DNA from: a virus
Virus record (IMG/VR): IMGVR_UViG_3300009527_000010
Coordinates: 1 to 40,737 of that record
DNA length: 40,737 bases
Strand: one strand, 5' to 3'
The notes below the pieces were generated by a model, which made no database searches, had not been told where the DNA came from, and worked only from the letters and a program-made list of their open reading frames with translations. A program made the translations under genes and the position numbers. Below are positions 5,261-31,773 of this stretch, piece after piece. The first letter of the stretch is position 1, and each line of letters starts with the position of its first letter.

Positions 5261-6964
5261 TCAGAAAAGTGTTGAGTTATTAGAATCGTTTGATTTTCCA
5301 AAGTTTTCATCAAATAATCGTGCTGCATCTCCAAGAATATCCACAGTAGTAACATCAATGGCACCTACCGCTGAATTACTCATTGATCGCTTCTCTTCGA
5401 TGATTCCATAGATGTGCTCATCAATCGTGTCTTTACCCACGAAATATGTGCATTGTACATTGTCTTTGGCGCCAATACGATGAGCGCGATCTTCGGCCTG
5501 GTCATGTATAGCAGCGTGCCATGCGAATTCAACGAATGCAACTCTGCTTGCTGCTGTCAACGTAATACCAACACCAGCAGCCATGATCGAACAAACGATC
5601 AGCCTACATTCGGGATCCGTTTGGAAGCGATCTACATTAGCATCACGCTGTTCGTGGGCATCGTTTCCGGTAACTGTGACGCATTTAGGGTACTTTGCTA
5701 CGATCTTGTTGATCACCTCATGCAAGTGAGCGAATACAATCAATTTCTCGCCTGCCTCCATTACTTCATCAATGTATTCGAATGCCGTTTCTAGCTTTCC
5801 ATTGGCAGATATGTTCTTCAGTGCCTGCATCTTCACCATGAGTTCACCACGAAGGCTTTTCTGAACTTCCTCATCCGTTTTTTGGCGGTACTTTTTGAGG
5901 TAGTCAGCAAGATCCATTTCAGCCTCTTTGTACTCCTGCCTGTTATTGATCTCGCAATAAACGATCTGCCTTGTTTTGCTAGGCAACTGAGTAAGTACCT
6001 CGTGCTTTTCTCTTCTGAAGAAACAATTGCGCCTGAGTTGCGCGTTCAGATGCTCCAATGCCCCGGTGATTGGCTTATCACAATACATAGCTTTGAATGC
6101 CTTGTACCCTCCGAGGGTGTTCAGGTGGTCAATGATTGCGAGCTGTGATATAAGATCATCTGGTTTATTGATTACAGGTGTTCCTGTCAGCGCTAAAATG
6201 TACTCCTTGTCCTTACATATACCCTTGGTCAACTTCGTTTGAATGGTAGCGTTGTTCTTGCATCTGTGGCTCTCATCAATAATTACAGATTGAAATTTGT
6301 CAATGCCTGACTTGAATTTGAAATCCTTCAAAGTAAGTTTTTCGCCTTCATCCTTCTGCTTGCGCTCTTCAACAAAATACTTCTGCAATGACTCATAATT
6401 GACGATGAAAACATCGTATTGGCCCCGATCAATGAGAAACTCCCACCGGTTCTTTATAGAGTCATCCAACACCCTTGCACGCTTATCTGTCCAAATAGTC
6501 CATTCACGTCTCCAGTTCTCACGAAGAGTAGCCGGGCAAATGATTAAGCATGGAAATGCATTCACCTCTGTGATTGCCATTATTGATTGGCCTGTTTTAC
6601 CTAGCCCCATCTGATCACCAACGATCACCCTTTTATTATCACAGATATATTGCACTCCTTCCAATTGATAAGGAAATGGGGTGCGCCTAAAAGTAGATGA
6701 TCCTCTATACTCAGGCATTTTAGGATATTCAATATTGGAAAAATCGTAAGGCGAATTACCTGTGCTCTCATCTACGATCTCAAATTCATACTTATTAGCA
6801 AATGCTGTTACTTGATCGACTGAAAAAAATGGAGCTGTCCAGCACTTTAGCTTGTCATTCCATGATCTTCCATCAATGAGTTTAACAGCATCCACAAGCC
6901 GTGGGTTGTAACGGAAATTTATTACAAACCCACGGTCAGTCTTGCGAATGTGGTTGGCGTTCAT
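5261..6964 (-). CDS. SNF2-family helicase/translocase
   Basis: 567 residues. The N-terminal segment (FRYNPRLVDAVKLIDGRSWNDKLKCW, about 17-42) resembles the HARP-like lead domain of SMARCAL1-type proteins. Motif I is GDQMGLGKT (116-124), motif II DESH (230-233), motif III LTGTP (259-263) and motif VI QAEDRAHRIG (489-498), with an intact C-terminal helicase half (AAGVGITLTAA). Such phage enzymes are dsDNA translocases thought to act in recombination, fork regression or replication. The start overlaps the stop of the gene upstream by 3 nt. Confidence 0.9.
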   Translation of the reverse strand: MNANHIRKTDRGFVINFRYNPRLVDAVKLIDGRSWNDKLKCWTAPFFSVDQVTAFANKYEFEIVDESTGNSPYDFSNIEYPKMPEYRGSSTFRRTPFPYQLEGVQYICDNKRVIVGDQMGLGKTGQSIMAITEVNAFPCLIICPATLRENWRREWTIWTDKRARVLDDSIKNRWEFLIDRGQYDVFIVNYESLQKYFVEERKQKDEGEKLTLKDFKFKSGIDKFQSVIIDESHRCKNNATIQTKLTKGICKDKEYILALTGTPVINKPDDLISQLAIIDHLNTLGGYKAFKAMYCDKPITGALEHLNAQLRRNCFFRREKHEVLTQLPSKTRQIVYCEINNRQEYKEAEMDLADYLKKYRQKTDEEVQKSLRGELMVKMQALKNISANGKLETAFEYIDEVMEAGEKLIVFAHLHEVINKIVAKYPKCVTVTGNDAHEQRDANVDRFQTDPECRLIVCSIMAAGVGITLTAASRVAFVEFAWHAAIHDQAEDRAHRIGAKDNVQCTYFVGKDTIDEHIYGIIEEKRSMSNSAVGAIDVTTVDILGDAARLFDENFGKSNDSNNSTLF

Positions 6965-8526
6965 TAGACAAAATCAATTGTAATGTTGGCCAACTCTTTT
7001 TTGCATAAATCAATGGCATGATTTGCTCTTTCAGCGCCCTTCTTGCCTGCTTCCGACTTCATGGTAGAAACATCAACTTTTAGGGCATCAATATTTTGCA
7101 CCAATGCCTTCAGGATTTCTCCATCCGGACGCATTTTCTTCAACTCCTGAGCGCGAAGTTTCTCGCTCTGGTGCTTTTGCTCAAACACCAATCTATTCTT
7201 TGCATCGAACACATTAGAAGCGTGAGCGCTACAACCTGCAAGAATTTGGCTAAAGTCTTCTGGACCCGCCTCTCTAATCTCAGTGAAACTCACTACCATA
7301 CTGAGCGATTTGACTCCCAATTTTTCATCACCGACAAACAGCAGTGCAATCTCTTCACCGCGTTCAACGAATCCAAGGGCTCGCAAGTTTGCACAGCGGT
7401 CTTCAAACTGCTTTTGCTTCGCCTCCTTTTCTTCGCTCTCGATACGGATCAGTTCAATCTCCTGGTTGTACTCATCAGATTTTGCCTGAGCTGTTGCAAG
7501 CATCAAAGTCCATGCATCCTCTTCGCTTTCGAATATTTCGGTTTTAGTGAAAACCTGATTGGTACCATCGAGGTAGTACCCCTCTCCTATCAAGGAGAAT
7601 CCAAGATTTGTGAGTGCTAGATGACGATTGTTGCCGCGATCGCGCTTGATCTGCACTTGAGCGGCATCAATACGCTTTTGCTCTTCTGCTTGCTCCTGTT
7701 GCTTGCGCTCGAACTCCTCTATCTTTTTCTTTTCAGCTATGTGCAAATCAGACAAGTCACTGTGAAGGGCGTTGAACTCTTCAACTGACAACAGAAACAA
7801 CTGCTCTTCTGTAAGTGTTGTTTCGAATCGAGCGCGACTAAACACACCAGACTCTTCATTATAAAACATACCGAGCTGATTGATCTCAGACTTGCGTTTA
7901 CTCATAAGATCTGCTTTGGCCTTTTCCTTTGCCATGTCAGCAGCAATGATATTGGCCTGATCTATCCAGCGGTTAAACTCATCCTCCTTGAAATCGCACA
8001 CGTCATTCATGTGGATCGCATGTTCACCAATGAAATAACTTTGGCCTTTGATTACGGCTCCCGTTTCATCAATTCTAGTGCAACGATCATTGATCTTTTT
8101 GTCTTCCAAGTCCTGAAGGCGCTTTTTCTCTTCGCGCTCAAGCTGCTCGAAATTGGCCTGTTCTGCTTGCAGATAATCTTCGATTTCAGTTAACTCTTCA
8201 ACCCATTCAGCAACGCCTGCTTTTACCCGGTTGATGATCTCCTTTGGTGTCTCAAGGATTTCCTTTTCACGTCTTTGAATAGCTAAACGCAATTGCTTAA
8301 CACGCTTGCGCTCCGTATCTATCAACTTGTAACCACCCTTGTCTGCAAGCCCTTGAATCTTTAAAGATTTCAATGCTTGCAATTCGGCAAGTTGATCTTT
8401 GTTGATGGGCAATGAAGATAGATTCGCTTGGATAAGCGTTTCATTTGCCTCTTTGATTTGCTGCTCCATCTCTGGAGTAAGGATCACGACCTCTGTCGCT
8501 TCCTGAATTTGTAATTCTTGTGCCAT
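6964..8526 (-). CDS. Large coiled-coil protein (DUF1351-like)
   Basis: 520 residues, dominated by charged helices. Residues about 40-110 (DQLAELQALKSLKIQGLADKGGY, then RKRVKQLRLAIQRREKEIL) resemble the DUF1351-type phage proteins that accompany recombination genes. Further coiled coil lies around 130-150 and 255-290, with a C-terminal SMVVSFTEIREAGPEDF region. No catalytic motif is seen. It is the first gene after an operator repeat (8564-8586) and has the GATTTATGTGA leader (8528-8538). It may scaffold the SNF2 helicase, whose start overlaps its stop. Family assignment is moderate. Confidence 0.6.
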   Translation of the reverse strand: MAQELQIQEATEVVILTPEMEQQIKEANETLIQANLSSLPINKDQLAELQALKSLKIQGLADKGGYKLIDTERKRVKQLRLAIQRREKEILETPKEIINRVKAGVAEWVEELTEIEDYLQAEQANFEQLEREEKKRLQDLEDKKINDRCTRIDETGAVIKGQSYFIGEHAIHMNDVCDFKEDEFNRWIDQANIIAADMAKEKAKADLMSKRKSEINQLGMFYNEESGVFSRARFETTLTEEQLFLLSVEEFNALHSDLSDLHIAEKKKIEEFERKQQEQAEEQKRIDAAQVQIKRDRGNNRHLALTNLGFSLIGEGYYLDGTNQVFTKTEIFESEEDAWTLMLATAQAKSDEYNQEIELIRIESEEKEAKQKQFEDRCANLRALGFVERGEEIALLFVGDEKLGVKSLSMVVSFTEIREAGPEDFSQILAGCSAHASNVFDAKNRLVFEQKHQSEKLRAQELKKMRPDGEILKALVQNIDALKVDVSTMKSEAGKKGAERANHAIDLCKKELANITIDFV

Positions 8527-8563
8527 TGATTTATGTGAATTTTAAATTTACTCGACAAATATA

Positions 8564-8601
8564 TATGCAAATTAAATCAAATTACAATTAATTTGCATAT
8601 A
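8564..8601 (-). promoter_or_regulatory. Operator-like repeat with inverted second copy
   Basis: 8564-8586 carries the element TAATTTGATTTAATTTGCAT in transcription direction. It is followed by an inverted half-site TAATTTGCATATA on the plus strand at 8589-8601. The element is 37 nt upstream of the ATG at 8526 and just downstream of the tRNA-like gene, so a promoter for the helicase operon probably starts here. Confidence 0.55.
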
Positions 8602-8613
8602 TTTTCAAAATTG

Positions 8614-8672
8614 CGGTGTGGGGCAGACTCGAACTGCCGACCTGAAGCTCTAACCATCTGAGCTACCACACC
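8614..8672 (-). tRNA. tRNA-like gene lacking the anticodon arm (59 nt)
   Basis: Read on the minus strand from 8672: acceptor GGTGTGG, TA, D-arm GCTC-AGATGGTTA-GAGC, then only TTC, variable loop AGGTC, T-arm GGCAG-TTCGAGT-CTGCC, acceptor CCACACC, discriminator G. All three remaining stems pair perfectly. The 17-nt anticodon arm (positions 27-43) is absent, so no amino-acid identity can be read, and CCA is not encoded. It could be a fresh deletion pseudogene or a functional tRNA mimic. Perfect pairing of every other stem argues against long decay. Confidence 0.65.
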
Positions 8673-8860: not shown

Positions 8861-9574
8861 TTATGAGAAGATTATTGGCAATTCAGCCAATGCCTCCACT
8901 ACTTTGTTCAGTTCTTTTTCAGCCTGCTCTTCCTCAAGAAGCATCATTGGAACGCTTTCCAAATAGAATCTTGGGGATCCACTTTCAAGGGAAACCAATA
9001 CATCGATTGTGGTCGATGTTGGTTGAACTCCTTGCCACGGAGTCACGAGCAATGAGATCTCCTTCTGCATATTGGTTTCCACGTTAAGGTGAGCTGAATT
9101 GGCAATCTTGCCTCGCTGGTCATCAGCTTTCTTGGATTCACCTTCAACCTTCATTGTGAAGTTGCGAAGGGAATTCAAGGTGTCTCGATAATCCTGAGTT
9201 GATTCGAAAAGGTGTGGGCGCTTGCGTAGAAGCATTTCCAAATCCTTTTCAGAGTGCTTTACAGTGGTATTGATTCCAAGTTCTTTGTAGTCCTTGTTCT
9301 TAACCAGCGCCCCTTTGATAGAAATAGTCTCTTCAACTATCTCTTTTTGCAATTGCAGTTCCACTGTGCGTTCACCTTCATTGACCAACAGCAACGAATT
9401 CTTAGGATCAATTTGAATCCCTGCTGCTTTGCGTTTTTGAAAGTAATCAATGACACTAGCCAATGTACCGGTCAAAGAATAACCTTTCGGCTGGCGAATA
9501 ATTGACGCCTGCCCTTCACGGATAACAATCTCCCTTGTTTCTCCATCCATGATGTTCAATTCGATCTTTTCCAT
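8861..9574 (-). CDS. Hypothetical phage protein, 237 aa
   Basis: It begins MEKIELNIMDGETREIVIREGQA and ends PMMLLEEEQAEKELNKVVEALAELPIIFS. The C-terminal half contains NMQKEISLLVTPWQGVQPTSTTIDVLV and SGSPRFYLESVPM, β-rich strands seen in conserved proteins of phage recombination operons (DUF2303-like is possible). I cannot assign a function. It lies between a coiled-coil gene (4 nt away) and the structured non-coding stretch. Confidence 0.6.
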   Translation of the reverse strand: MEKIELNIMDGETREIVIREGQASIIRQPKGYSLTGTLASVIDYFQKRKAAGIQIDPKNSLLLVNEGERTVELQLQKEIVEETISIKGALVKNKDYKELGINTTVKHSEKDLEMLLRKRPHLFESTQDYRDTLNSLRNFTMKVEGESKKADDQRGKIANSAHLNVETNMQKEISLLVTPWQGVQPTSTTIDVLVSLESGSPRFYLESVPMMLLEEEQAEKELNKVVEALAELPIIFS

Positions 9575-11647: not shown

Positions 11648-11720
11648 TATGCAAATATAGTCTAATTAAATCAAATTGCAAGTTATTTGCATATTTATTA
11701 TGCAAATTATGTCTAATTGT
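11648..11720. promoter_or_regulatory. Divergent control region with clustered operator repeats
   Basis: Between the leftward early operon and the rightward repressor there are at least three copies of the phage-wide element: 11648-11668, 11666-11680 (overlapping) and 11699-11720. An inverted TTATTTGCATA lies at 11683-11693. Two copies share ATGCAAAT(A/T)A and GTCTAATT. This is the densest cluster in the window and lies where lambdoid phages hold their operators. TAACTTTTATATAACTATCTTTG at 11722-11744 (as TAACTTTTATATAACT and ATCTTTG) may hold the repressor promoter. Confidence 0.6.
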
Positions 11721-18660: not shown

Positions 18661-18700
18661 ACACTTTGTTTAACCGTTTTATAGCTTTTAACCAAAACCG

Positions 18701-18773
18701 TTGCGGGGGAAGGATTCGAACCTCCGACCTTGAGATAATGAATCTCACGAGCTGACCACTGCTCCACCCCACA
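18701..18773 (-). tRNA. tRNA-Met(CAT)-type tRNA
   Basis: 73 nt, a complete cloverleaf: acceptor TGTGGGG/CCCCGCA (one G-T), D-arm GAGC/GCTC, anticodon arm TGAGA-TTCATTA-TCTCA with anticodon CAT at 18738-18740, variable AGGTC, T-arm GGAGG-TTCGAAT-CCTTC, discriminator A. CCA is not encoded. It has no GGG/CCC anticodon stem, so it is not an initiator; it could be elongator Met or Ile2 (lysidine). Position 37 is T, where a purine is almost always found. Confidence 0.85.
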
Positions 18774-31713: not shown

Positions 31714-31746
31714 TATGCAAATAACAGCTAATTATAGCAAATTACA
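31714..31746 (-). promoter_or_regulatory. Triple operator-like repeat after the capsid terminator
   Basis: Three half-sites 10 bp or so apart in transcription direction: TAATTTGCTATAATTAGCTG and then TTATTTGCATA. The element is 25 nt upstream of ATG 31688 and directly follows the capsid terminator, so it probably restarts transcription of the tail genes. Confidence 0.55.
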
Positions 31747-31773
31747 TAAAAAAAACCCACCGTTTTCGATGGG
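31746..31773 (-). terminator. Intrinsic terminator after the major capsid gene
   Basis: On the minus strand CCCATCG-AAAA-CGGTGGG followed by eight T. It pairs fully with one G-U. It lies 37 nt after the capsid stop and would limit read-through, giving high capsid mRNA relative to tail genes. Confidence 0.75.

Follow-up and report, generated by a model that had tools for sequence, protein, structure and literature searches.

The minus strand of a 40.7-kb virus sequence from IMG/VR encodes, at positions 8614–8672, a tRNA-like RNA without an anticodon arm (the whole stretch analysed, 40,737 nt in length, is called the window). Non-reading tRNAs of this kind were found in a wide range of phages that are not related to one another, which makes a viral RNA kept by selection more plausible than a defective gene. 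The structure and conservation of this class were shown by comparison of sequences, and from them we infer both cleavage and function: with a probability of roughly 0.45, RNase P and RNase Z would excise the RNA from the phage transcript, dividing the message and freeing the tRNA-like RNA.

Structure and detection of the window element

Read from its 5′ end, the gene runs GGTGTGG-TA-GCTC-AGATGGTTA-GAGC-TTCAGGTC-GGCAG-TTCGAGT-CTGCC-CCACACC-G and is made up of the following parts.

8614–8672, minus strand: anticodon-less tRNA-like RNA gene, 58-nt body plus discriminator; 45.2 bits with RF00005, 72.6 bits with the leave-one-out model R2
8666–8672, minus strand: acceptor 5′ half GGTGTGG, 7/7 pairs with 8615–8621; the helix covaries in the class
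8665–8664, minus strand: nucleotides TA between acceptor and D stem
8647–8663, minus strand: D arm GCTC-AGATGGTTA-GAGC with G15, G18 and G19; stem 4/4 paired, (nearly) invariant in alignment A4
8639–8646, minus strand: linker TTCAGGTC, consisting of the U26-UC-A44 turn followed by G45 G46 U47 C48; 26:44 pairing and 15:48 covariation in the class
8622–8638, minus strand: T arm GGCAG-TTCGAGT-CTGCC, stem 5/5 paired, T loop TTCGAGT
8615–8621, minus strand: acceptor 3′ half CCACACC, 7/7 pairs
8614, minus strand: discriminator G

The perfect pairing of the acceptor (7 bp), D (4 bp) and T (5 bp) stems, claimed in an earlier sequence-only reading, was borne out by the minus-strand sequence, and so was the complete absence of the anticodon arm, as the D stem passes via 8 nt into the T stem. 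The 3-nt join reported after the D stem can be refined to position 26 plus a dinucleotide; since U26 is able to pair with A44, the 26:44 pair marks the precise point at which the arm has been removed. The tail after the acceptor, G73 C74 A75 A76, is of the NCxA form common among CCA-less phage tRNAs.

The Rfam tRNA model RF00005 gave 45.2 bits (cut-off 29), matching over its full length with the anticodon arm skipped. The element was missed by ARAGORN and by the default filters of Rfam, both of which report only the tRNA-Met near 18700 in the window. A covariance model built from 38 other elements, from which the window copy was excluded, scored it at 72.6 bits (E ~2e-26 in the window), while the ordinary tRNA-Met at 18702–18768 reached 24.3 bits. 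Minimum-free-energy folding of the isolated strand did not return the cloverleaf and preferred another structure, thus the tRNA fold of the window element rests on comparative evidence.

In place of the 7-nt anticodon loop of a functional tRNA the element has only its 8-nt linker, and since it and its class have no seven-base anticodon loop, they cannot decode. The lost pairing and free drift of a pseudogene were not found either, as 16/16 stem pairs are intact in the window and the class covaries. The element shares with the class the covarying acceptor and T stems, the 15:48 pair and the U26–A44 closure without an anticodon loop, and it is one of the shortest forms in the wider class.

A class of anticodon-less tRNA-like RNAs in viral contigs

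All viral contigs were scanned with a first pattern consisting of a D arm, 7–20 nt and a T loop, in which the acceptor stem was not required. It returned at least 119 stretches, and at least 84 distinct matches had 10 or more of the 12 acceptor and T-stem pairs; 17 and 5 matches came from related patterns. When the nonredundant viral matches of all patterns were taken together without filtering, the acceptor was paired at 6–7 of 7 positions in 137 of the 170 among the matches listed, versus 6 expected with shuffled partners. Overall, the viral contigs hold well over 100 anticodon-less tRNA-like RNAs as a lower bound. As a similar pattern gave just 79 matches in 257 Gb of prokaryote genomes, many of them containing Ns from scaffolding or belonging to a different type, the class is concentrated in viral contigs. 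Examples in isolate genomes came from Corynebacterium flavescens, Acinetobacter, Microbacterium and Lacticaseibacillus. The Polaribacter phage Danklef_1 carries one, at 43546–43603 of MT732458, that is annotated as “tRNA-OTHER, Undet (NNN)”, and in the Vibrio phage K476 and its relatives a 60-nt anticodon-less tRNA with an encoded CCA lies in a tRNA array (L234:2501–2560; OZ195911 141592–141651). Such phage RNAs were not found described in the open-access literature (subscription papers lay outside the search), and the class is apparently a viral RNA so far undescribed.

Pairing across the class was analysed in a nonredundant set of 104 well-paired members among the matches listed, for which acceptor and T-stem pairing served as the filter and 26:44 and 15:48 did not. 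Linker length, counted from the D to the T stem, peaks distinctly at 8 nt (41/104 among the matches listed). Within this group, again among the matches listed, 26:44 is paired in 38/41 members compared with 25.7 in shuffles (p<0.0005), and the pair is Watson–Crick in 37 of the 41, with four types represented (CG, TA, GC and AT). This pairing implies that the anticodon arm is cut at its top and a two-base turn stands in its place; the commonest turn sequence in the 8-nt group is CUUG, a known tetraloop sequence. A 39-member alignment showed changes on both sides at all seven acceptor pairs, four of the five T pairs, 26:44 and 15:48, with 98.7% of its 702 pair cells standard versus 70% after shuffling and 32–48% when slid; double changes occupy 204 pair cells, the members having been prefiltered on acceptor and T-stem pairing. 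At the tertiary (Levitt) pair 15:48, G-C is replaced by A-U in three members of the alignment. U8 and A9 are conserved in the class, neither of which the first scan had demanded. The sequence of the acceptor stems is free to vary, as is position 73, and this lack of class-wide acceptor and N73 identity argues against aminoacylation.

When the viral contigs were scanned a second time, for linkers of 16–20 nt, these tRNA bodies also turned up in a form whose short anticodon stem ends in a tetraloop rather than in the seven-base loop. With the 20-nt linker, 23/39 good members among the matches listed have a perfect 5-bp anticodon stem and a 4-nt loop, often GNRA (GAGA, GCAA, GAAA, GGAA, GTGA) or UUCG, and the discriminator 73 is not conserved in this form. 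Both scans together show phage-encoded tRNA bodies that either lack the anticodon loop or carry a stable cap in its place, with an arm of freely varying length. Such freedom means that only the elbow and the acceptor are needed, in line with the recognition by RNase P, RNase Z and the CCA enzyme. Two tetraloop-type mimics are each surrounded by an outer stem, 14 bp long in L250 and 9 bp in L293.

The earlier reading had offered two origins: the arm was deleted recently, or the gene was selected as a tRNA mimic serving as a decoy or a processing signal. Selection stands at the level of the class, owing to the covariation of the acceptor, 26:44 and 15:48 and to the modal linker; a recent deletion is unsupported, since the class is widespread and its acceptor stems are diverse. 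That the window gene is a decaying or freshly deleted tRNA without function is therefore improbable. Such decay would agree with a comparable truncation in Lactococcus P335-type phages, whose relatives have a full-length tRNA-Met there, and with the position of about a quarter of the class near full tRNAs, but it does not explain the compensatory changes at every acceptor pair, the covariation of 26:44 and 15:48, the modal linker or the stable tetraloops. Neither does it agree with the Acinetobacter-type cluster, in which the body is kept nearly identical although flanks and linker differ. For the class as a whole, functionless decay is already contradicted by these comparisons.

Several look-alikes were set apart from the class. 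In Lactococcus phages of the P335 type, the region from lysin to repressor contains a shortened tRNA-Met (AF323670 36732–36795, L127; DQ838728 199–262, L130; OP323077 21575–21651, L237), and phages bIL312 and PLgT-1 have only the 3′ part of tRNA-Met. These phages were dropped as members because relatives carry a full tRNA-Met at the same place, which makes theirs a separate truncation. A full-length tRNA in a relative, the outcome that the earlier reading had named as refuting, was observed for these phages alone, whose deletion is a different one. Gaps of NN that coincide with the anticodon arm were seen in tRNA genes of metagenome-assembled genomes (MAGs; L138, L145, L151, L160, L181, L194 and others); these are probably scaffolding artefacts mimicking loss of the arm, and matches with N runs in the genome collection were discounted as evidence since they resemble such gaps.

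Genomic surroundings and flanking signals

The window contains genes for an integrase, exonuclease VIII, a helicase, a tape measure protein and a large terminase, and the element sits between two genes of its own strand.

8861–9574, minus strand: upstream gene, DUF2303-related (Bacteroides phages); phrog_11501, E 2e-23; tblastn matches annotated as DUF2303
6964–8526, minus strand: downstream gene of 520 aa on the same strand; a family search gave no match
8558–8587, minus strand: promoter/operator-like repeat (TTTG..TATATTTG type) between the element and the next gene; repeated in the genome

The DUF2303-related protein is also matched in a Flavobacterium phage, and its relatives in Bacteroides and Flavobacterium phages suggest a host from the Bacteroidota. 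The repeat TTGCAATTTGATTTAATTTGCATATATTTG occurs on the minus strand at 2295–2324, 8558–8587, 11652–11681 and, in a weaker form, at 31718–31747, where chance would predict none. The copies at 2295–2324 and 11652–11681 each precede an open frame, and a likely meaning of the repeat is shared regulation of several operons. The 520-aa gene seems to have its own promoter directly after the element, so that excision in the window would affect only the upstream operon, at its 3′-end. A search of the viral contigs with the flanking proteins gave no relatives of the window phage, and comparison of the intergenic DNA with GenBank phages yielded chance or generic tRNA matches alone; as none of the collections searched contained a relative of the phage, selection at this locus is deduced from class membership.

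The presence of an integrase and the frequent origin of partial tRNA genes in phage integration (PMC9897764) could mean that the element is what an attachment site in a host tRNA gene has left behind. We regard this as hardly credible, as the element has the two halves of the acceptor and the two arms, the integrase lies ~4 kb away on the opposite strand, and attachment sites copy the 3′-end of a host tRNA, not a covarying whole body.

Judged from base frequencies, the flanks of the elements are a weaker form of true tRNA processing signals. U precedes the body at −1 in 44% of the elements (37% or less at the seven preceding positions), and the tails have C74 in 59%, C75 in 21% and A76 in 50%, the corresponding values for full CCA-less tRNAs at the same loci being 86%, 7% and 47%. 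Among the 78 elements flanked by genes on both sides, 54 fall within same-strand gene runs and 24 do not. A hairpin ends just 5′ of the element in Danklef, in an Acinetobacter cluster and in a Microbacterium cluster, and in two of the three, Danklef and Microbacterium, the next start codon comes no more than ~20 nt after the element, which leaves no room for a promoter of its own; this arrangement suggests that the element is probably read only within a longer message. The enrichment of such hairpins is modest, with an upstream z below −2 in 27% of the elements versus 12% of solitary full tRNAs, and terminator motifs lie upstream of 12/104 elements versus 7% of random positions. A terminator just 5′ was consequently rejected as a general feature, as it holds for a subset only. 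A full tRNA was found within 300 nt of 26/104 elements, sometimes only 2–8 nt away.

A cis-regulatory leader or a domain of a larger RNA, such as a tRNA-shaped element of translation or transcription or a Y-RNA-like part, appears quite improbable. The 9–14-bp outer stems around L250 and L293 and the location of some copies directly 5′ of a ribosome-binding site would suit it. Against this, outer stems are overall no commoner around the elements than in swapped controls, Shine–Dalgarno starts within 60 nt after the elements are not enriched (21 vs 21 on the control side), and no other Rfam family overlapped the elements in the 12 loci tested. Very short frames follow the element directly at L022, L036, L037, L102, L108 and L112 and at L095, L107 and L054; among their products are hydrophobic peptides of ~28 aa, for example MLLVKIMIYLAVVSAISIFFYGAGG, and MLGFLKRLFWIDD-like peptides.

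Possible function and related RNAs

The product of the window gene would be a ~59-nt tRNA mimic that keeps the acceptor stem, the D arm, the T arm and the elbow. Processing enzymes recognise the elbow and the acceptor/T stack of tRNAs (PMC4810234), and RNase P needs no more than an acceptor/T-stem hairpin (PMC11143913). The 12-bp stack and the elbow are features recognised by RNase P, RNase Z and the CCA-adding enzyme, so the host RNases P and Z would be expected to cut the element from the surrounding phage transcript. The cut would part the upstream from the downstream mRNA, as in tRNA punctuation of polycistronic transcripts or at the RNase III sites of T7, and a small stable tRNA-like RNA would remain; loss of the anticodon loop would presumably prevent charging or translational use of the processing mark. 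Excision is favoured because the retained parts are those that the end-processing enzymes read, and because of the flanking signals, the same-strand gene runs and the 5′ hairpins with close starts. The sequence determinants of RNase P processing are present, namely the elbow, the 12-bp stack and the class-wide bias for U−1 and C74. Counted against excision are the 24/78 elements outside same-strand gene pairs, the modest hairpin enrichment and the non-conserved position 73 in the tetraloop form, and punctuation would be pointless for those elements that lie 2–8 nt from a full tRNA.

The main rival explanation, which we consider possible though doubtful, is that the excised, CCA-ended and unchargeable tRNA body acts in trans, occupying a host tRNA-handling factor and thereby protecting the phage; candidate targets are defence enzymes or toxins that attack tRNAs, exonucleases and stringent-response factors. 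The tails resemble those of CCA-less tRNAs, suggesting that a mature 3′-end may matter, and the 26/104 elements in or beside tRNA clusters would share their processing, as would suit the copy with a CCA inside the tRNA array of the Vibrio phage K476 group. Moreover, phages evade tRNA-targeting defence by their own tRNAs (PMC11555353), and a role as competitive inhibitor has been proposed for the tRNA-like domain of YrlA (PMC7790460). However, the free variation of the acceptor stems and position 73 implies that no specific target tRNA is copied, and several copies stand behind a terminator-like hairpin without room for a promoter, which would be odd for an abundant decoy. Extended to the whole class, the proposal that phages of many bacterial phyla carry a family of non-decoding tRNAs, their anticodon loop lost or capped by a tetraloop, as trans decoys against tRNA-attacking or tRNA-sensing host factors seems rather unlikely.

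If the class is real, it represents a recurrent phage RNA that tRNA finders discard or mislabel, as in the “tRNA-OTHER Undet” annotation of Danklef and the miss by ARAGORN, and it would mean either RNase P punctuation of phage messages or a new viral tRNA mimic directed against tRNA-based immunity. The class would be a natural minimal substrate for tRNA-maturation enzymes, and either reading is testable on one short RNA.

With the canonical bacterial tRNA (RF00005) the element shares the acceptor, D and T arms, U8, G15–C48, G18/G19 with the T loop and a score above the cut-off, but the class has no anticodon loop and its acceptor stems and position 73 are not conserved. T7 early mRNA contains RNase III sites, at which a host endonuclease divides the polycistronic phage message; these offer a functional analogy only, because the enzyme is different and the sites are plain hairpins. 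The mascRNA of MALAT1 is mammalian, keeps a small anticodon arm and is not sequence-related to the phage element. The acceptor of YrlA, a bacterial Y RNA, is closed, with the parts in permuted order. YrlA resembles the element in having tRNA D, T and acceptor arms without an anticodon that are read by tRNA enzymes, but it ends in a basal stem, is 90–150 nt long and is associated with Rsr and RNA-repair genes (PMC8394870), whereas the phage element ends at the acceptor after ~59 nt. Identity with YrlA was rejected, as the order here is acceptor–D–T–acceptor and not T–acceptor–D with a basal stem. Neither rsr nor rtcBA genes are among the neighbours of the window element, which are the DUF2303 relative, the family-less gene and the helicase. 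Like the phage element, mascRNA is a tRNA mimic, one that serves to bring in RNase P and other tRNA-processing enzymes for end formation, and plant-virus tRNA-like structures also mimic the tRNA elbow (PMC4810234), but the latter form the 3′-ends of RNA genomes, are pseudoknotted and can often be aminoacylated. Phage transcripts cut by RNase P are already known in the phi80 M3 RNA and the phage antisense C4 RNA (PMC11143913). The M3 RNA was dismissed as an earlier example of this shape, being annotated as a lambda oop homologue, antisense near cII and not tRNA-shaped.

About 20 chromosomal matches in Bacteroidota were set aside because their acceptor halves are not paired in tRNA order. These chromosomes carry a conserved module in the order T arm, acceptor 3′, acceptor 5′, D arm, T arm, that is, a permuted tRNA-like arrangement with T arms ~32 nt before and ~30 nt after the D arm (L161:7330–7430, L154, L171, L200, L190, L147, L179, L207, L136 and others). 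In L161 and L179 it lies ~500 nt 5′ of similar-looking reading frames, and the modules are probably bacterial Y RNAs. Another tRNA-like RNA, of ~121 nt, was observed in four viral contigs (L007:4857–4977, L083, L046 and L082), with paired acceptor, D and T arms and a conserved ~60-nt domain, including a second T-arm-like hairpin, that replaces the anticodon arm.
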